NCBI GenBank assembly: GCA_030424845.1
Contig: JAUHWC010000005.1
Span: 51,001 to 115,000, forward strand
Source: Alphaproteobacteria bacterium
GTDB taxonomy: Bacteria > Pseudomonadota > Alphaproteobacteria > Sphingomonadales > Sphingomonadaceae
Length of the DNA: 64,000 nucleotides
Reading direction: 5' to 3'
The position numbers and the translations under genes were made by a program. Within the stretch, counting starts at the first letter, position 1. Every line of letters starts with the position of its first letter. Shown piece after piece: positions 12,964 through 35,244 of this stretch. The notes below the pieces were generated by a model. That model was given only the letters and a program-made list of their open reading frames with translations. It did no database searches and had not been told where the DNA came from.

Positions 12964-13040
12964 GCCGTCCCTGCCTCGCTCTCTCATCCCAAGCCAGCAG
13001 CCGCGCCGACAGCCTTCGGAGTAGCAACGGCACAGGTTTA

Positions 13041-13056
13041 TTGCAATCGATTGTAA
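13041..13056. promoter_or_regulatory. Candidate LacI-family operator TTGCAATCGATTGTAA
   Basis: Palindromic core CAATCGATTG between divergent Gfo/Idh and MFS genes; core recurs at 18824-18833, 26724-26733 and 26747-26756. Confidence 0.8.
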
Positions 13057-13091
13057 TTTCGCTTACCCGAGGCAATCGGGAGAGAGAATCA

Positions 13092-16604: not shown

Positions 16605-17740
16605 ACATGCAAACAGACCTTGAAGCAGGCCCGGCGGCACGGCCCGCCATTTCGCGCTGGCACATTGCGAAGCCCTGGCAGGCTGCGGAATTGCCGGTCA
16701 TTTCGGCAGCGGATGTCGCGCCAATCATTCCGGGGATCGACCTGTGGGATTGCTGGCCGCTGCAAAACGAAGACGGTTCGACGGCCCAGATCGGTGGCGC
16801 GCAGTTCTGGTTCTTCCTCGCGGCCCCTTGCTTCGATGATCCGGTGGAACGCCACTTCCATGCCCGCATTCGCCTGCTGAAACGGCACGACGGCGTGTGG
16901 ACCGATCTGGGCAATGCCATGCCCGACGGCTTCTCGCCCGGTCATGCCGAATGGGCCGGATCGTGCATGCTGGATGCGGACGGAAAAGGCGTCACGCTGT
17001 ACTTCACCACCGCCGGCTACCGCGGGCAAGGACCCGGCTTTCAGCAGCGCATGTTTGCCAGCCGGGGCACGCTGGATGCGTCAACCGGTCCGGGAAACTG
17101 GCAGGAATGCATCGAGCTTTTCCGTCCAGACGGCATGCTGTTCCAGCCTGCCAACAAGGCGGAAGGCGCACCCGGCACGATCAAGGCCTTTCGCGATCCG
17201 GCCTGGTTTCGTGACCCCGCTGACGGACAGGCCTACGTGCTGTTCACCGGCAGCGCGGGGTGGAGCGATGATCCCTTCAACGGGCTGGTCGGATTTGCCA
17301 GCGAGACTGACCATGGCTGGGAACTGGGCCAGCCGCTGATCGAGGCGGTGGGCGTCAACAACGAGCTGGAACGCCCGCACATCGTGATGCGAGGCGGCCT
17401 GTACTACCTGTTCTGGTCAACCCAGCGGCACACCTTTTCTCCCGAGGTCACAGCCGGTCCCAATGGCCTTTATGGCGCGGTGGCAGACAGCTTCACAGGT
17501 GAGTGGCGGCCGATCAACGGCAACGGGCTGGTGGTCGCCAATCCGGCCAGCGAACCGACGCAATCCTACAGCTGGTGGGTGACCGGCGAAGGCGAGGTGT
17601 GGAGCTTTATCGACTATTGGGGAATGCGCGGCCGCACGCTGGGCGACCATCCCGAATTGCTGCGCAGCCAGTTCGGGGGGACTCCAGCCCCGCGCTTCAG
17701 GCTGGCGTTCGATGGGAACAGCGTAACCCTTGCCGCCTAG
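16601..17740 (+). CDS. GH68 family fructosyl hydrolase/transferase (levansucrase-like)
   Basis: GIDLWDCWPLQNEDGS, FRDPAWFRDPADGQAYVLFTG, NNELERPHIVMRGGLYYLFWSTQ give the D / RDP / ERP positions of GH68. Confidence 0.87.
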   Translation: MNMQTDLEAGPAARPAISRWHIAKPWQAAELPVISAADVAPIIPGIDLWDCWPLQNEDGSTAQIGGAQFWFFLAAPCFDDPVERHFHARIRLLKRHDGVWTDLGNAMPDGFSPGHAEWAGSCMLDADGKGVTLYFTTAGYRGQGPGFQQRMFASRGTLDASTGPGNWQECIELFRPDGMLFQPANKAEGAPGTIKAFRDPAWFRDPADGQAYVLFTGSAGWSDDPFNGLVGFASETDHGWELGQPLIEAVGVNNELERPHIVMRGGLYYLFWSTQRHTFSPEVTAGPNGLYGAVADSFTGEWRPINGNGLVVANPASEPTQSYSWWVTGEGEVWSFIDYWGMRGRTLGDHPELLRSQFGGTPAPRFRLAFDGNSVTLAA

Positions 17741-18774
17741 GCGCTGGCCCTGACGATAAGTTCTGGCGACATGACAAGCGCCTCTGCCTCCGTCCCGGCG
17801 AGCCTTTGCATCAACCGTTCGACCATTTCCGCTGCGCCACCGGCGATGTTCTGACGTATCGTTGTCAGTTGAGGTACCGTGTGGCTGGCAAGCGGCAAGT
17901 CATCGAAGCCGATCACCGCGACATCGTCGGGCACCTTGATGCCGCGCTGGTCCAGCAGTCGGATCGCGCCCGTCGCGATCGTATCTGAAGCTGCAATGAT
18001 ACCATCGACACCCCGCTCGAGAGCCGCGAGGATTGCCGTCAGTTCATCGCTCATCTCTTCCATGGAAAGGTGGACGGGCAACTGCCGAAGATCCCCAAAT
18101 CCGTGATCGGCAACAAGGGCCGCTGCGCCGTGATAGCGTTCCTCGATTTCGATACCGGTGGTGTCCCCCAGGAACAGCAGGTTGCTCCGCCCCTTGCCGA
18201 TAAGGAATTCTGCGGCAAGCTGACCACCCGCTCGGTTGTCCGAACCGACGCTGCAATGAACCTGCCCGTCGCGATGACTGCCCCAAACCACCAGTGGGCG
18301 ATACTCGCCAGCAACCTCCTCAATGACGTCGAACTGGTCCGACTGGCCGATCATCAGCACGCCATCAATCATGCCCGAACTCACGATCCGCTCCAGCCAT
18401 GCAGGATCGTCCTGCGGAATGGCGCGCGACAGCATCAGGTCATAACCCCGTTCGGTCAGCTCGTCCGCCAGCGCGCCGAGCAAGGTCATGAAGAAGGGGT
18501 CCGAAACATGCTGTCGCCGATCATGGCCAAGCGGGATCACCACGGCGATCACACCGGTCTCCTGCCGCCGCAGCTTGCTGGCCATCTGGTTGACCCTGAA
18601 GCCATGCTCTCGCGCAAGGGCCTGTATCCGGTCCCGCGTCTTGGCATTCACCACCGACTTGTTGGCAAGCGCCCGCGACACCGTCCCCGCCGAAACGCCG
18701 GCGATGGCAGCCAGTTCGGCGATGTTGCGAATGCGCTTTGGCGAGGAACTGCGGTTATCAGAGGTATCTGTCAT
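17737..18774 (-). CDS. LacI family transcriptional regulator
   Basis: IRNIAELAAIAGVSAGTVSRALANKSVVNAKTRDRIQALAREHGF. Confidence 0.94.
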   Translation of the reverse strand: MTDTSDNRSSSPKRIRNIAELAAIAGVSAGTVSRALANKSVVNAKTRDRIQALAREHGFRVNQMASKLRRQETGVIAVVIPLGHDRRQHVSDPFFMTLLGALADELTERGYDLMLSRAIPQDDPAWLERIVSSGMIDGVLMIGQSDQFDVIEEVAGEYRPLVVWGSHRDGQVHCSVGSDNRAGGQLAAEFLIGKGRSNLLFLGDTTGIEIEERYHGAAALVADHGFGDLRQLPVHLSMEEMSDELTAILAALERGVDGIIAASDTIATGAIRLLDQRGIKVPDDVAVIGFDDLPLASHTVPQLTTIRQNIAGGAAEMVERLMQRLAGTEAEALVMSPELIVRASA

Positions 18775-26721: not shown

Positions 26722-26758
26722 TACAATCGATTGCAATCCAAAATTTCAATCGATTGCA
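26722..26758. promoter_or_regulatory. Tandem candidate LacI operators upstream of the TonB receptor
   Basis: CAATCGATTG at 26724-26733 and 26747-26756, 23 bp apart. Confidence 0.8.
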
Positions 26759-26889
26759 ATCGCGCTCGTTCAAGATGTTGCCGTTCTCCGTGGCATGGTC
26801 CGAAAAATCAGTTTGACGTGGAAACTGCGAACATCCCGAGCTCGACGCAGCATACCGGCGAATCCCCGCCGTAGCTTGATCGAACACAT

Positions 26890-26904
26890 ATTATCATATA
26901 ATTG
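26890..26904. promoter_or_regulatory. Candidate GntR/FCD operator (ATTATCATATAATTG) upstream of the sugar kinase
   Basis: Same TTATCATATAATTG string as at 28651-28667. Confidence 0.7.
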
Positions 26905-26935
26905 AGTCGCATGGTTGTCCAGTAGGGTTTTTGCA

Positions 26936-27946
26936 ATGGCGCGAATCGTTTGTTTTGGTGAGATTTTGTTGCGCCTTGCAAGCGCGCCGGAACAATTGTT
27001 GTTGCAAGACAACCGGTTGGAATCCACGTTTTGCGGGGCTGAAGCCAATGTCGGTATTGCCCTTGCAGGTTTCGGGCACGACTGCGCTATGGCTTCGGTC
27101 TTGCCCGACAATGCATTGGGGAAGGCGGCAACGGCCGAGTTGCGCCGGCATGGCATGGACGTTTCGGCCCTCGCTACAGGATACGGAAGGATGGGCCTGT
27201 ATTTCCTGTCCCCGGGCGCAATGGCCCGCACATCCCGCGTTACCTACGATCGGCAGGGGTCCGCGTTTGCGCTCTGCGAAACGGGTCGCTTCGATTGGCC
27301 AAAGCTTCTCCAGGGAGCTGATGTGCTGTTCGTAAGCGGCATCACCCCGGCGCTGGGCACAGGGCCGGACAAGGCACTCTCTGATGCCATTAATTGGGCA
27401 CGTGACGCCGGAGTGAAAGTTGCCTTCGACAGCAATTTCCGCCCTGCCCTGTGGCAAGGCCGCGAAGCCGAGGCTGCCATACGATTGCGCGAGCTGGCTG
27501 AACTGTCGGACGTGGTATTTGCCGGACGCCGTGCCATCGGACTTATGCTGGGTCGGACATTCGACCATCCCGATGGCGACACTGCCTTTGCTGAAGCGAC
27601 CGAGGCGATGTTCGATGCTGCGCCGGATATTCGCCACATCGCCGCGACCCGCCGGACGATCATTTCAAGCGATCACCATCAGTTGACAGCACTATTGGCA
27701 GCCCGTGATGGCGTCTCCCGGTCAAGGACAGTGGACCTTCACCAGATCGTCGACCGGGTCGGAACCGGAGATGCTTTCGCCGCCGGGATCGTTCATGGAC
27801 TAAGCCAGCACCTGCCCGGTAGCGAAATCGTGGAATTTGCCCTTGCCTGCTCGCGATGGGCGCACTCCATCAAAGGGGATTTCCTGCGCGCCGACCTCGC
27901 GGATATCGACACGATGATGGCAGGTAGCAGCGACGTATCGCGCTAA
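26936..27946 (+). CDS. kdgK: PfkB-family sugar kinase, 2-keto-3-deoxygluconate/galactonate kinase-like
   Basis: FGEILLRLASAPEQLLLQ, AEANVGIALAGFGHDCAMASVLPDNALG, DRVGTGDAFAAGIVHGL. Confidence 0.88.
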   Translation: MARIVCFGEILLRLASAPEQLLLQDNRLESTFCGAEANVGIALAGFGHDCAMASVLPDNALGKAATAELRRHGMDVSALATGYGRMGLYFLSPGAMARTSRVTYDRQGSAFALCETGRFDWPKLLQGADVLFVSGITPALGTGPDKALSDAINWARDAGVKVAFDSNFRPALWQGREAEAAIRLRELAELSDVVFAGRRAIGLMLGRTFDHPDGDTAFAEATEAMFDAAPDIRHIAATRRTIISSDHHQLTALLAARDGVSRSRTVDLHQIVDRVGTGDAFAAGIVHGLSQHLPGSEIVEFALACSRWAHSIKGDFLRADLADIDTMMAGSSDVSR

Positions 27947-27948
27947 CA

Positions 27949-28608
27949 CTATCCCTGCAGCTGCGCCTGCGCAGCCCGGAACGCGGCGACAATTTCGCGC
28001 GCATCTGCAGCGACGTCTTCCACCGGTTTGCCGGGCTTGAAGAGCGCGCTGCCCAGGCCGAAGCCCGTCGCACCTGCCTTCAAATAGTCCGCCATGTTGC
28101 CTGCATTGACTCCGCCAACGACAAACACCGGAAGCTCCGGCGGCAACACCGCGCGCACGGCCTTCACCGCAGCCGGAGTAAAGAGTTCTGCCGGGAAGAT
28201 CTTGAGGCCCGCAGCTCCGCTCTCGATGGCGGCGAACATCTCTGTCGGGGTCATGACACCGGGCAAGGCCAGCATGCCAAGGGCATCCGCACGCGCGATT
28301 ATGCGGTCATCGCAATTGGGGGCTACGACCAGGCTGGCGCCCAGTTGCGCAAGATCATCGACGGTCTTGACCGTCATGACGGTTCCGGCGCCGATCATGG
28401 CGCGCGCGTCGAATGCCTCGATGATGGCCGCAATGCTGCGCAGCGGCTCGGGCGAATTCATCGGAACCTCGATCAGTTCGATCCCGGCGTCGATCAGCAC
28501 CTGCGCGATTGCAACCGCCCGCTCAGGCTCCAAACCACGCAGGATTGCGACCAGCGGCAGGCAACGCGAAAAACGATCCCGGACATCCATTCGTTGTTGT
28601 TCCACCAT
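27949..28608 (-). CDS. dgoA: 2-dehydro-3-deoxy-6-phosphogalactonate aldolase
   Basis: LVAILRGLEPERAVAIAQVLIDAGIELIEVPMNSPEPLRSIAAI, GAGTVMTV, KIFPAELFTPAAVKAVRAVLP. Confidence 0.9.
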   Translation of the reverse strand: MVEQQRMDVRDRFSRCLPLVAILRGLEPERAVAIAQVLIDAGIELIEVPMNSPEPLRSIAAIIEAFDARAMIGAGTVMTVKTVDDLAQLGASLVVAPNCDDRIIARADALGMLALPGVMTPTEMFAAIESGAAGLKIFPAELFTPAAVKAVRAVLPPELPVFVVGGVNAGNMADYLKAGATGFGLGSALFKPGKPVEDVAADAREIVAAFRAAQAQLQG

Positions 28609-28650
28609 AGATTCCGCCTCTCCGGCTCATGAAGTCGATTGCCTATCTTC

Positions 28651-28667
28651 CAATTATCATATAATTG
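28651..28667. promoter_or_regulatory. Candidate GntR/FCD operator CAATTATCATATAATTG
   Basis: Inverted repeat CAATTAT-N3-ATAATTG in the divergent dgoA/SMP-30 intergenic region. Confidence 0.78.
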
Positions 28668-28755: not shown

Positions 28756-29673
28756 ATGTCACCTCGGCTCAATCCAAGCATAGCATTCACCATCGATGTC
28801 GCCTGCACGCTTGGCGAAGGACCTGTCTGGGACGATCGCCTGCAGTGCCTGTGGTGGACCGACATAGCCGAACAGCGCCTCTATCGATGGAACTGGCATG
28901 ATCGCACGACGACCTGCCTCGACCTGCCCGAAAGGCTTGGCTCTCTCGGCCTCACGAGCGATCAGGAATGGCTTGTCTGCGCCTTTGCCAGCGGCTTTGC
29001 ACTGTTCAACCCGCAAACCGGGGAACATGACTGGCTGCACCAGGCCGAGCCGCACTATCGCGGCATTCGCATGAACGATGGTCGGGTCGATAACCGAGGC
29101 AATTTCTGGGCCGGTAGCATGGTCGAAGATGCCGCCCTTGCCGGTGATGCGAGGGGAACGCTCTACAGGCTTTCGCCAGATGGAACGGTCACGCACCATC
29201 GCGAAGGCATAGGCATCAGCAACGCGATCTGCTTTCCTCCCCACGGAAACTCTCTCTATTTTGCCGACACGCCGACCGGAGAAATACGGGAGTTGCCCTT
29301 GAATGACGATGACACCGTAGGGCCTGCCGCGCCGTTTGCTTCGGTGCAGGGCGCGGGACATCCCGATGGCGCGATTATCGACGCGGAAGGCTGTCTCTGG
29401 AACGCCGAGTGGGGCGCATCGCAGCTGACCGCCTACTGGCCCGACGGGTCGATCCGCCACCATATGCCGTTGCCCGTTTCCCAACCTACGTGCATGGCCT
29501 TCGGCGGACCTGACCTCGACCTGCTCTTTGTCACATCGGCGCGCGAGAATCTGGACGAAGCCGCACTTCGCCAGCAGCCCGATGCGGGCAAGGTGCTCGT
29601 CCTGGCGCAGGCTGGCCGGGGCATTCCGACAGCGCGCTTCCCGCTCGACCAATTGCGAGGACAGATCCGATGA
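28756..29673 (+). CDS. SMP-30/gluconolactonase family protein (likely galactonolactonase)
   Basis: LGEGPVWDDRLQCLWWTDI, RMNDGRVDNRGNFWAGSM, GISNAICFPPHGNSLYFADT. Confidence 0.92.
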   Translation: MSPRLNPSIAFTIDVACTLGEGPVWDDRLQCLWWTDIAEQRLYRWNWHDRTTTCLDLPERLGSLGLTSDQEWLVCAFASGFALFNPQTGEHDWLHQAEPHYRGIRMNDGRVDNRGNFWAGSMVEDAALAGDARGTLYRLSPDGTVTHHREGIGISNAICFPPHGNSLYFADTPTGEIRELPLNDDDTVGPAAPFASVQGAGHPDGAIIDAEGCLWNAEWGASQLTAYWPDGSIRHHMPLPVSQPTCMAFGGPDLDLLFVTSARENLDEAALRQQPDAGKVLVLAQAGRGIPTARFPLDQLRGQIR

Positions 29674-30395
29674 CATCCAGCACCGAAAACACGGAAAAGA
29701 CCGGCAACCTGACGCGCCGCATCGCCGACCAGATCGGCCGGGCCATCGTCGCGGGCGAATATGGTGACCGCCCCTTCCCTATCGAAGCGGATATTTCCGA
29801 GCAGTTCGATGCCAGCCGCAGCGTCACCCGCGAAGCGATCAAGATGCTCACGGCCAAGGGGCTGATCGCTTCACGCCCGCGTCGGGGCACTAGCGTTGCT
29901 CCCGAAGCGGACTGGAACTTCCTCGATCCCGATGTGCTGCGCTGGCTTCTCGGAAGGGGTTTCTCGCTCGACCTGCTGAGCGAATTTACCGCCTTTCGCA
30001 GTGCTATCGAGCCGCAAGCCGCATTGCAGGCGATCCGTCGCAATGATCCCGAGGCGCTTGTTCGTATCGAAGCCGCCATCGAACGGATGGAGAGCGTCAG
30101 CGCTGACGACCGCGAGGCAACCCTGGCTGCCGACATCGAATTCCACGTCGCCATCCTGCTGGCCAGCGGCAATCGCTTCATGATCCAGTGCTGCGACCTG
30201 GTGGAAACTGCCTTGCGCTATTCAATCCAGCTGACCGACCTTGAGAAAGGCGTGGCCGCAGCGGACATCGACGCTCACCGGGTCATCGCCAATGCCATTC
30301 TCGCAGGGGATGCGGCCCGCGCGGTAACGGCCAGTCAGGACCTGCTGAACGAAGCGGCCATGCTGATCGAGCGCGCACGACGGGCTGCGGGATGA
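29670..30395 (+). CDS. FadR/GntR family regulator with FCD domain (DgoR-like)
   Basis: EADISEQFDASRSVTREAIKMLTAKGLIASRPRRGTSVAP; FCD-type helical C-terminus. Confidence 0.92.
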   Translation: MTSSTENTEKTGNLTRRIADQIGRAIVAGEYGDRPFPIEADISEQFDASRSVTREAIKMLTAKGLIASRPRRGTSVAPEADWNFLDPDVLRWLLGRGFSLDLLSEFTAFRSAIEPQAALQAIRRNDPEALVRIEAAIERMESVSADDREATLAADIEFHVAILLASGNRFMIQCCDLVETALRYSIQLTDLEKGVAAADIDAHRVIANAILAGDAARAVTASQDLLNEAAMLIERARRAAG

Positions 30396-31423
30396 TGCAA
30401 GGCTCGGTAGTGGCTGCGCCGTTCGGCACGCTGTCGGACGGATCGCGGGCGATGTCATACAGCCTGTCGCTCGACAATGGCGTGGCTGCCATGCTGACCG
30501 ACTTCGGTGCCAGCCTGATCGGCTGGCGCGTGCCGGACCGCCACGGAAGGCTCGACGATGTCGTGCTGGGTTGCGACGACGTATCCGCATTGGCGCAACA
30601 AACCGCCTATCTCGGTGCTGCGGTTGGGCGCGTTGCGGGCCGTGTGCGCGCTGCACGCTTCCCGCTTGATGACCGTGAATATCACGTGGCCGCCAACAGT
30701 GCGCCGCACCATCTGCATGGCGGTGTTCGCGGTTTCAGCTATCGCCTCTGGTCTGCCGAGGTGCTCGACGACGACTTGCCCGCCGTGCGTTTCACCATCA
30801 CCAGCGAGGATGGCGACGAGGGCTATTCCGGCGAAGTGCAGGCAAGCCTCACCTACCGCCTCGAACCGCCTGCCCGCCTTGTCCTGACATTCGAAGCGGT
30901 AGCCAGTCGGCCCACACCGTTCAGCCCCACCTGCCACGCCTATTTCAATCTGGATGGCCACGGCGCCGGTAGCCTCGCCAGTCACACCCTGCACCTCCCA
31001 GCCTCGCGCTACACACCGGTCGATGAAGCGCTGATCCCAACCGGCGAGATCGCGCCCGTAAACGGCACGCCGATGGATTTCGGGGAGCCGAAGGGGTTCG
31101 CCCAAGAATATGACCACAACTTCGTCATCGATGAGCCGCCGGGCCAATTGCGGCACGCGGCGAGCCTTGTTTCCCATACTTCGGGGCGCGCGCTGTCCAT
31201 ATCGACGGATCGCCCCTGCATCCACCTCTACACCGGCGCAGGACTGGACATTCCCGGTGGCAAGCAGGGCACCAGCTATGGCCCCTTCAGCGGCCTTGCG
31301 CTTGAGACGCAGGGGTTTCCGGACGCCCTAAACCACGAGCTCTTCACCGCCAATGTCCTTCGCCCGGGCGAAACATTCCGCAGCCAGACAGTCTTTGAAT
31401 TTATCCAGGAACCAACACCGTGA
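30392..31423 (+). CDS. galM: Aldose 1-epimerase (galactose mutarotase)
   Basis: YLGAAVGRVAGRVRAARFPLDDREYHVAANSAPHHLHGGVRGFS, SPTCHAYFNLDGHGAGSLASHTLHL. Confidence 0.94.
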   Translation: MMQGSVVAAPFGTLSDGSRAMSYSLSLDNGVAAMLTDFGASLIGWRVPDRHGRLDDVVLGCDDVSALAQQTAYLGAAVGRVAGRVRAARFPLDDREYHVAANSAPHHLHGGVRGFSYRLWSAEVLDDDLPAVRFTITSEDGDEGYSGEVQASLTYRLEPPARLVLTFEAVASRPTPFSPTCHAYFNLDGHGAGSLASHTLHLPASRYTPVDEALIPTGEIAPVNGTPMDFGEPKGFAQEYDHNFVIDEPPGQLRHAASLVSHTSGRALSISTDRPCIHLYTGAGLDIPGGKQGTSYGPFSGLALETQGFPDALNHELFTANVLRPGETFRSQTVFEFIQEPTP

Positions 31424-32565
31424 ATGCAATACAATCCATCGAGACATTTCTTGTCCCGCCGCGCTGGCTCTTTGTCCGTGTCGAGACTTCCGAAGGCCTG
31501 ATCGGCTGGGGCGAAGCCAGCCTTGAAGGGCATGGCGAGGCGGTTATTGGAGCGTTTGCTTCACTGCGCGATCGCTTTGTCGGCGCGAATGCGGATCGCA
31601 TTGAGGACACCTGGCAGACCGCCTATCGCCTCGGGTTCTACCGCGGCGGTCCGGTGCTGATGTCGGCGCTTTCGGGGCTCGACCAAGCGCTGTGGGACAT
31701 CAAGGGCAAGACCCTGGGCGTGCCCGTCGCGCAGCTGCTGGGCGGCGAAGTACGGGATGCGATCCGGGTCTATAGCTGGATTGGCGGTGACGACCCGGCC
31801 TCGGTGAAAGAGGAGGCCGAGGTGCGCAAGGCGCAAGGCTTCGACACGGTGAAGATGAACGCCACCGGCGCACTCGCCCGGCTAGACAGTCGCACAGCGC
31901 TTGACGGCGTTGTCGAGCGCGTTTCTCTGGTGCGCGAAGCGGGCATGGACGTGGCGGTGGACTTCCACGGCAGGGTCCACAAGCCGATGGCAAAGCAGCT
32001 GGCCCAGGCGCTCGAGCCGCTGGCCCCGCTGTTCATCGAGGAGCCGCTGCTGAGCGAACAACCCGCTGAAATCGCCGAACTGGCGCGGCGGACCAACCTG
32101 CCGATTGCTCTGGGCGAGCGGCTCTACAGCCGCTGGGACTTCCGCCCATTCTTCGAAAGTTGTGCGATCGACGTTGCCCAACCCGACCTCTCGCACGCTG
32201 GCGGCCTGTCCGAGTGCCGCCGCATCGCCAATATGGCAGAGGCCTACGACGTCGCTATCGCCCCTCATTGCCCCTTGGGGCCGATTGCGCTCGCCGCCTG
32301 CTTCCAACTGGCCGCCGCAACACCCAACTTCGTGATTCAGGAGATGTCGCTGGGCATCCACTACAACCAGGACGGCCATGACCTGCTGAGCTATCTGGTG
32401 GAGCCTGACGTGTTCCGTGTCGACAACGGTCTGGTCGAGACCCTGAAGGCGCCCGGCCTCGGTATTGCCATTGACGAGGAGAAGGTGCGCCACCTTGCGG
32501 AAAGCCCGCACAGCTGGCGCAATCCGGTATGGCGCGGCCGGGATGGAGGGCTGAGTGAATGGTGA
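31420..32565 (+). CDS. dgoD: D-galactonate dehydratase (enolase superfamily)
   Basis: VETSEGLIGWGEASLEGHGEAVIGAF, LSGLDQALWDIKGKTLGVPVAQLLGG, VDFHGRVHKPMAK. Confidence 0.93.
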   Translation: MNAIQSIETFLVPPRWLFVRVETSEGLIGWGEASLEGHGEAVIGAFASLRDRFVGANADRIEDTWQTAYRLGFYRGGPVLMSALSGLDQALWDIKGKTLGVPVAQLLGGEVRDAIRVYSWIGGDDPASVKEEAEVRKAQGFDTVKMNATGALARLDSRTALDGVVERVSLVREAGMDVAVDFHGRVHKPMAKQLAQALEPLAPLFIEEPLLSEQPAEIAELARRTNLPIALGERLYSRWDFRPFFESCAIDVAQPDLSHAGGLSECRRIANMAEAYDVAIAPHCPLGPIALAACFQLAAATPNFVIQEMSLGIHYNQDGHDLLSYLVEPDVFRVDNGLVETLKAPGLGIAIDEEKVRHLAESPHSWRNPVWRGRDGGLSEW

Positions 32566-33302
32566 AACATGATTTTGCAGGCAGCGTCGTCCTGATAACC
32601 GGGGCGATCGGCGGGATTGGCAAGGCCACGGCGAGCGCGTTTGCCCGGGGTGGCGCATCTCTCGTCCTGGTCGATCTGGCAGAAGCAGAAGAAACAGAGT
32701 GCGCGCGCCTCATTGGGCTTGGCGCCGAGGTAGCCGCCAGCCTATCCTGCGACATCAGCGATGAGGCCGCCATTGCAGGCCTCGTCGATAAGGTGCTCGA
32801 AAAGTTCGGCAGGATTGACGTGATCGTCAATATCGCTGGTGCCATGATCTACCGTCCTGTGGCGGAAATGAGCGCTGACGACTGGAACAGGATGCTGGCG
32901 ATCAACCTCGTCGGCCCCGCCCTGCTGACCGGCGCTGGCCTGCGGCATATGCGTTCCGGCGGCTCCATCGTGAATATCGCATCGATCCACGCCCGGCAGA
33001 CGACCGCCGAAGTGGCTGGCTACGCGGCGGCAAAAGCCGGGATCTGCAGCGTGACAAGGACGGCGGCGATCGAAGGCAAGGCAAAGGGAATCCGGGTGAA
33101 TGCCGTTCTCCCGGGAGCGATAGACACGCCGATGCTGTGGAACAGTCCGACTATCAAATCGGGGGCCGAGAAACTCGATCCGTCGCAGGTCGGCAGGCCT
33201 GAGGACATCGCGGAAGTCGTTTGCTTTCTTGCGAGTGACTCGGCCGCTTTCATTACAGGCGAAGAGCTTATGGCTGACGGCGGCAGGATCGCGAGCCTTT
33301 AA
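32559..33302 (+). CDS. SDR family oxidoreductase, candidate galactose 1-dehydrogenase
   Basis: VVLITGAIGGIGKATASAFARGGA, NIAGAMIYRP, GYAAAKAG; in operon with dgoD/galM. Confidence 0.9.
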   Translation: MVKHDFAGSVVLITGAIGGIGKATASAFARGGASLVLVDLAEAEETECARLIGLGAEVAASLSCDISDEAAIAGLVDKVLEKFGRIDVIVNIAGAMIYRPVAEMSADDWNRMLAINLVGPALLTGAGLRHMRSGGSIVNIASIHARQTTAEVAGYAAAKAGICSVTRTAAIEGKAKGIRVNAVLPGAIDTPMLWNSPTIKSGAEKLDPSQVGRPEDIAEVVCFLASDSAAFITGEELMADGGRIASL

Positions 33303-33738: not shown

Positions 33739-34968
33739 TCAGCGCTTCGCCGTTTTGATCGGCACCACCTGAGCCCCCGCTCGCAGCCTATCGAGGTAAT
33801 CGCTCCACCATTGCGCCATCTTCACGCGCTCCTTCCAATGGGCACCGCGATGATAGGCGGCGCGGACCTTGTCGCTGTCGCCGTGGGCCAGGGCGCGTTC
33901 TATGGCGTCGGGATTCCACTTGCCGCTTTCGTTCAGCAAGGTGGAGGCCATCGCGCGGAAGCCGTGGGCGGTCATTTCATCGGTGGTATAGCCGAGGCGG
34001 CGCAGGCCAGCGTTGATTGTGTTGTCACTCATCGGACGCCTGCGAGTGCGGACTGACGGGAATACAAAGCCAGTGGGACCGGTCAGTTGCTGCGCCTCGG
34101 CAAGGATCGCAATGGCCTGGCGCGAGAGCGGAACGAGGTGATCCTTGCGCATCTTCGTTTTGCTTGCCGGGATCGTCCATAACGCTCCATCAAAGTCGAA
34201 TTCGCTCCATTCTGCATGGCGAAGCTCGCCCGGCCTGACAAACACATGTGGAGCGAGTTGCATTGCCAGCTTGGTGATCGGTTGGCCTTCGTAGCCATCG
34301 ATTGCTCGAAGCAACGCCCCAGCCCCGTCAGGATCAAGGACCGCGCCGTAATGCGTCACGGTAGGGTTCATCAGTGCACCCCTCAAATCGCGTGTGGGAT
34401 CGGATTTGAGGCGCGCTGTGGCGACCGCATAGCGAAAGACCGAACCTGCCAGTTGCAGAGTCCGTTTAGCGCTCTCCAGCCTGCCCTTGCTCTCAATGCG
34501 GCGAACGGCGGTCAGGATGTCGGCAGGCTCGATGTCTGCAATCGGCAGATTGCCAATCGAGCTGTTAAGTACCGAGAGCAGATATTCGCAGCGCTTCGCC
34601 GTGGCAGGTGCCCATGCCCGTGAACCATCATTCCGGCGCTTCTCGCAGAACTCGGCAGCCAAGGCAGCAAAGGTATTCTCGGCATCCAGCCTCGCACGCG
34701 CCTTCTCACGCTGTTTTTCGCGCGACGGGTCCTTGCCCTTTGCCATCTGCTCTCGCGCCGCATCGCGCCTTCTCCGAGCCTCAGCCAACCCAACTTCCGG
34801 GTAAGTTCCGAGACCCAGTTTCTTTTCGCGGCCATCGACGCGGTACTTCATTCGCCACAGTTTTCCGCCGCTTGGCTGCACCAGGAGGAAGAGGCCTGAC
34901 GAGTCGCCCATTTTGTAGGGTTTCGGACCGGCCTTTGCTTTACGAATTGAAACGTCTGTTAGCGCCAT
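33739..34968 (-). CDS. int: Tyrosine recombinase/integrase, P4/CP4-57 type
   Basis: ALTDVSIRKAKAGPKPYKMGDSSGLFLLVQPSGGKLWRMKYR, RPGELRHAEWSEFD, TAHGFRAMASTLLNE. Confidence 0.96.
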   Translation of the reverse strand: MALTDVSIRKAKAGPKPYKMGDSSGLFLLVQPSGGKLWRMKYRVDGREKKLGLGTYPEVGLAEARRRRDAAREQMAKGKDPSREKQREKARARLDAENTFAALAAEFCEKRRNDGSRAWAPATAKRCEYLLSVLNSSIGNLPIADIEPADILTAVRRIESKGRLESAKRTLQLAGSVFRYAVATARLKSDPTRDLRGALMNPTVTHYGAVLDPDGAGALLRAIDGYEGQPITKLAMQLAPHVFVRPGELRHAEWSEFDFDGALWTIPASKTKMRKDHLVPLSRQAIAILAEAQQLTGPTGFVFPSVRTRRRPMSDNTINAGLRRLGYTTDEMTAHGFRAMASTLLNESGKWNPDAIERALAHGDSDKVRAAYHRGAHWKERVKMAQWWSDYLDRLRAGAQVVPIKTAKR

Positions 34969-35170: not shown

Positions 35171-35188
35171 TGGAGCGGGTGAAGGGAA
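35171..35188 (+). repeat. Candidate att copy (tRNA-proximal): TGGAGCGGGTGAAGGGAA
   Basis: 3' end of tRNA-Gly; matches 7857-7873. Confidence 0.75.
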
Positions 35189-35244
35189 TCGAACCCTCGT
35201 CGTCAGCTTGGGAAGCTGCTGCTCTACCATTGAGCTACACCCGC
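35171..35244 (-). tRNA. tRNA-Gly (anticodon CCC), CCA encoded
   Basis: Reverse complement GCGGGTGTAGCTCAATGGTAGAGCAGCAGCTTCCCAAGCTGACGACGAGGGTTCGATTCCCTTCACCCGCTCCA folds as a cloverleaf. Confidence 0.97.

Follow-up and report, generated by a model that had tools for sequence, protein, structure and literature searches.

The locus considered here carries genes for galactose oxidation together with two closely matching palindromes, which raises the question of whether the palindromes are operators, which protein would bind them, and which transcription units would thereby be controlled. The locus lies in a window of 64,000 nucleotides from a genome of the family Sphingomonadaceae, and its features are listed in Table 1. 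The kinase gene (+) and dgoA (-) are convergent, and dgoA diverges around operator 2 from an operon that runs from the SMP-30 lactonase gene through gntR, galM and dgoD to the SDR gene (28756-33302, +). Farther along the window, a tyrosine-recombinase-type integrase gene (33739-34968, -) adjoins a tRNA-Gly(ccc) gene (35171-35244, -).

Table 1. Genes of the galactose cluster and the two putative operators, with coordinates in the window
Feature	Coordinates	Strand	Support
Operator 1 (putative), 17-mer ATATTATCATATAATTG	26888..26904	.	Two outer mismatches; matrix 26.9 bits
pfkB-family sugar kinase	26936..27946	+	Pfam PF00294
dgoA, 2-dehydro-3-deoxy-6-phosphogalactonate aldolase	27949..28608	-	NF006600, 273.5 bits (cut-off 207)
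Operator 2 (putative), 17-mer CAATTATCATATAATTG	28651..28667	.	Perfect CAATTAT-CAT-ATAATTG; matrix 28.3 bits
SMP-30/gluconolactonase-type lactonase	28756..29673	+	PF08450, 1.1e-72
gntR (FadR/FCD), DgoR-like putative repressor	29670..30395	+	GntR and FCD domains
galM, aldose 1-epimerase	30392..31423	+	PF01263, 2.8e-73
dgoD, D-galactonate dehydratase	31420..32565	+	NF010624, 559 bits (cut-off 311)
SDR dehydrogenase	32559..33302	+	PF13561/PF00106

The gntR gene sits beside dgoA and dgoD, both of which score above curated NCBI cut-offs. For the kinase, the best NCBIfam models (KHG/KDPG aldolase-sugar kinase fusion; KDG/KDGal kinase) are matched at scores under their cut-offs, and its context suggests that it is probably a 2-keto-3-deoxygalactonate kinase replacing DgoK. 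The SMP-30 protein is probably, again from context, the galactonolactonase, and the SDR protein probably the D-galactose 1-dehydrogenase, given its place in the pathway operon. With these three roles read from context, the cluster covers the whole of the oxidative (De Ley-Doudoroff) pathway for galactose. Since a DgoD homologue was found in only one of the 40 congeneric genomes searched, namely the window's own genome, the cluster appears to belong to an acquired island; a search of positions 1-36000 for direct repeats marking island ends returned none that fitted.

Both palindromes contain the shared core ATTATCATATAAT (26890-26902 and 28653-28665), with ATTAT-N3-ATAAT in common, and TTATCATATAATTG occurs exactly at 26891-26904 and 28654-28667, the positions given in the preliminary description, against a chance expectation of 0.06 with up to two mismatches allowed. 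The 7+7 palindrome CAATTAT-N3-ATAATTG put forward there is complete at operator 2, whereas operator 1 carries two outer mismatches. Operator 1 lies 31 bp upstream of the ATG of the pfkB-family kinase gene, and operator 2 occupies the bidirectional promoter region between dgoA and the lactonase operon. The further proposal that the motif is confined to the promoters of the galactonate branch agrees with genome-wide counts obtained by pattern searches. In the 2.83-Mb genome (9 contigs), CAATTAT-N3-ATAATTG with up to two mismatches occurs at three places, so that numerous unrelated copies were not found; the third match (CAATTCTGCGAGAATTG, C7:458481, two mismatches) falls inside an unrelated ORF on another contig, and the window's two sites are the only intergenic near-matches. 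The stricter core WTTATNNNATAAW is present twice in the whole genome, and both occurrences are the window operators.

The gntR gene encodes a protein of 241 aa with an N-terminal GntR winged-helix domain (PF00392, 9.5e-11) and a C-terminal FCD domain (PF07729, 5.8e-22). Its best PDB match is E. coli DgoR (7c7e, 6e-29; next PDB match 1.4e-12), with 35% identity over 210 aa. Three FCD regulators are encoded in the genome, and E. coli DgoR matches the protein from this locus at 1e-30, another at 1e-7 and the remaining one not at all. The metal triad of DgoR (D146/H150/H195) is kept as D155/H159/H203 and R102 is retained as R110. The other ligand residues of the E. coli protein, Q173, R179, W181, D184, T191, S221 and R224, are non-identical in a MAFFT alignment whose certainty is moderate there, so the ligand of the regulator may differ from that of E. 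coli DgoR.

The sites follow homologues of this regulator across genomes. The 33 genomes in which a regulator homologue was found total 120 Mb and contain 14 WTTATCATATAAW sites, of which 12 are no more than 12 kb from an FCD regulator homologue, against 0.12 expected (p ~1e-23), and with the window genome left out the proportion is 10 of 12 (p ~1e-19); for the same half-sites with other centres it is 5 of 46. Across 401 genomes, the 13-mer is present in 16 of 59 with a close regulator homologue versus 18 of 342 without one (p = 2e-6), and some of the 13-mers in those 18 genomes are probably chance occurrences. Within 506 kb of FCD regulator loci, WTTATNNNATAAW with a spacer of 3 occurs 10 times and with other spacers 0-1 times, and the reversed pattern is found 0 times. 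Unbiased dyad counts, taken over 250-bp upstream regions and over whole loci, mostly return GC-rich and codon-periodic dyads and are uninformative alone, although TTAT-N3 was observed 13 times against 1.6 expected. A matrix trained on 15 sites, none of them from the window, the Novosphingobium loci or genome G190, ranks the window operators first and second (28.3 and 26.9 bits), 19 bits ahead of the next best score in the 64 kb (7.3).

In two Novosphingobium genomes the regulator is 77% identical and its conserved neighbours are the kinase gene, dgoA and gntR, the only three of the seven cluster proteins kept around the sites. There, TTTGTCATATAATTG precedes the kinase gene (the copy in the second genome ends in A) and the variant site ATTTATCATATTAATA lies between dgoA and gntR; both are preserved while their flanks have diverged, and the matrix ranks two sites per locus at the top (23.7-24.7 bits; next best 3.6 and 6.6). 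In G190, where the regulator is 68% identical, ATTATCATATAATTG precedes the kinase gene, a second site before dgoA was found by the matrix, and tandem operators (L166, 6075 and 6096; 21 bp apart) stand before a GH2 glycosidase gene. This glycosidase is probably a beta-galactosidase, and the regulon of G190 would thus reach galactoside breakdown. Where the regulators are about 50% identical, a site lies before dgoD, in the dgoD-dgoK intergenic region, or before galM, one such galM and its regulator gene being on separate contigs; at many of these loci a perfect site was not found within 6 kb.

As judged from sequence, the two palindromes are very probably operators of the FCD-type GntR protein (29670-30395), which would act as a DgoR-like repressor of the De Ley-Doudoroff galactose pathway. 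The assignment draws on three lines: orthologous clusters keep the sites, the sites co-localise with homologues of the regulator across genomes, and elimination favours this protein, as TTGTCnGACAA clusters at the second of the three FCD regulators. The same three lines support the earlier suggestion that this regulator controls all three transcription units, and by prediction it binds the two operators and thereby also regulates its own gene.

Since TATAAT lies within both copies of the motif, part of it could be kept as a -10 box, and the shared sequence might then be a plain core-promoter element rather than an operator. At operator 1, TATAAT (26897-26902) falls inside the right half-site and is the probable -10 box of the pfkB promoter; CTTGA/CTTGT is conserved about 16 bp upstream of it in the pfkB promoters of four genomes, a point in favour of this reading. 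However, ATTATC, the other half, shows the same degree of conservation and is dispensable for a -10 box, the spacer length is constant (3), WTTATNNNATAAW occurs just twice in the whole window genome, and the 13-mer is concentrated around FCD regulators, which together make it very improbable that the motif is nothing but a promoter element. The sites could also bind some other accompanying regulator, such as the LacI-type protein encoded at 17737-18774 or one encoded elsewhere, given that the co-localisation of sites and FCD genes is correlative and that LacI-like boxes lie about 125 bp from the operator. Two of these boxes (AATCGATTGCAATC) occupy 26725-26765, in the interval that separates pfkB from the TonB receptor gene, yet they are unlike the FCD operators in sequence. 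In addition, pfkB, dgoA and gntR alone of the seven cluster proteins are conserved around the Novosphingobium sites, and the 11-bp frame TTrTnnnAyAA is the frame of DgoR operators, so that recognition by a different protein is most unlikely. A further LacI-like box occurs at 13039-13058, in a sugar-transporter promoter, and the three boxes together would suit an alpha-galactoside/sucrose circuit of its own. Because LacI-like boxes share its upstream intergenic region, pfkB could respond to both regulators and be under dual LacI/FCD control; that the FCD regulator forms a layer apart from the LacI circuit, as the preliminary description proposed, is accordingly tentative.

With the FCD protein as the repressor, a simple mode of control can be envisaged, in which a homodimer would contact TTAT-N3-ATAA with one half-site per winged-helix domain. 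The coincidence of operator 1 with the probable -10 box favours steric repression, and at the kinase promoter the bound repressor would shut RNA polymerase out of this element; at the divergon, a single operator would silence the promoters of dgoA and of the lactonase operon, gntR's own included. As D-galactose is oxidised, galactonate (or KDGal) would enter the metal-containing FCD pocket and release the repressor, whereupon lactonase, dehydratase, kinase and aldolase would be induced together. Three transcription units would in this way be governed by a single regulator through two sites. The FCD protein may instead bind these sites yet answer to a different signal, be it KDGal, galactonolactone or an intermediate of the KDPGal type, and may behave as an activator at one promoter. 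The apparent lack of conservation of most sugar-contacting residues of E. coli DgoR speaks for such a variant, whereas the conserved metal triad and R110 (E. coli R102), together with sites at or near -10 that fit repression, speak against it, and on balance it appears rather unlikely, though a good deal less so than the two readings weighed above.

The closest known system is that of E. coli, where two inverted repeats bound by DgoR overlap the dgo promoter and galactonate is the effector (PMC12288454, PMC7674646). In the K-12 sequence these repeats read TTGTAGTACAA and TTGTACTACAT, and their 11-bp frame, TTrTnnnAyAA, is the same as in TTATCATATAA here; among the matches listed in an exact literature search for TTATCATATAA, none concerned a DgoR-like galactose regulon of the kind described here. 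Both systems place an FCD-type GntR protein with an Asp/His/His triad in a galactonate cluster (PDB 7C7E for E. coli DgoR), with a palindrome overlapping a promoter. They differ in that an A/T pair replaces the G/C pair of the operator (TTAT..ATAA here, TTGT..ACAA in E. coli), that each promoter region has one site here and two in E. coli, that the regulator here belongs to a divergon with the lactonase, galM and SDR genes, and that a PfkB-type kinase is found in place of DgoK. In a regulon reconstruction for Halomonas, the DgoR regulon likewise contains De Ley-Doudoroff genes, including the COG3386 lactonase DgoL; as described there, this gammaproteobacterial regulon includes a sugar transporter, whereas the one described here has none (PMC5507952). 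Operators of the FadR subfamily generally follow TKGT-N3-ACMA, with the G/C pair usual, and the BioR operator TTATMKATAA, also of the GntR family, is a listed exception (PMC4494728). The 3-nt centre of this consensus matches the window sites, spacer 3 alone being enriched in FCD loci, but its GT/AC pair is absent from them; BioR and the present sites share A/T-only TTAT..ATAA half-sites, with a spacing of 2 in the former and 3 in the latter. The targets of BioR are biotin genes, not galactonate genes.

The altered operator is accompanied by changes in the recognition helix, which reads SRSVTR, with Thr53, in the present regulator, SRNIIR in E. coli DgoR, and SRTVLR or SRTAVR in relatives with TTGT sites nearby. 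At loci whose regulator has Thr at the position of T53, there are 10 occurrences of TTATnnnATAA and none of TTGTnnnACAA, and two relatives that lack this Thr have TTGT sites; L156, a locus also lacking it, has TTAT sites as well. The idea that Thr53 is a specificity determinant is therefore only suggestive. HTH position 28, which is Arg in FadR, was considered as the cause of the loss of G and rejected, as Ala also stands there in TTGT-associated proteins, namely E. coli DgoR and the contig 9 paralogue, both with TTGT sites. It is plausible, from few cases, that specificity has switched, and we tentatively propose, at somewhat less than even odds, that the Sphingomonadaceae DgoR branch exchanged a GT..AC for an AT..AT operator through changes in the recognition helix, avoiding cross-talk with TTGT..ACAA sites like those near the second FCD regulator of this genome. 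Around the second FCD regulator (C9:512658), TTGTCnGACAA occurs seven times in 37 kb of contig 9 (486-523 kb; L161-L163), a set predicted to form a separate, larger FCD regulon. At a sphingomonad locus of genome G049 whose FCD regulator has the recognition helix SRTVLR, the core of the site ATTGTACTACAAA (L124, 3220) is almost identical to the inverted repeats of E. coli DgoR.

Taken together, a DgoR-like regulon whose operator is shifted is solid as a prediction from genomic sequence, with binding and ligand deduced rather than observed. For the oxidative breakdown of galactose in Sphingomonadaceae, the analysis defines an operator and a regulon of compact design, in which two sites and one autoregulated repressor would serve three transcription units and which seems to have been acquired as one block. 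Set beside the TTGT-associated regulators, it forms a natural series in which the change of DNA specificity among FCD-family repressors could be tested.
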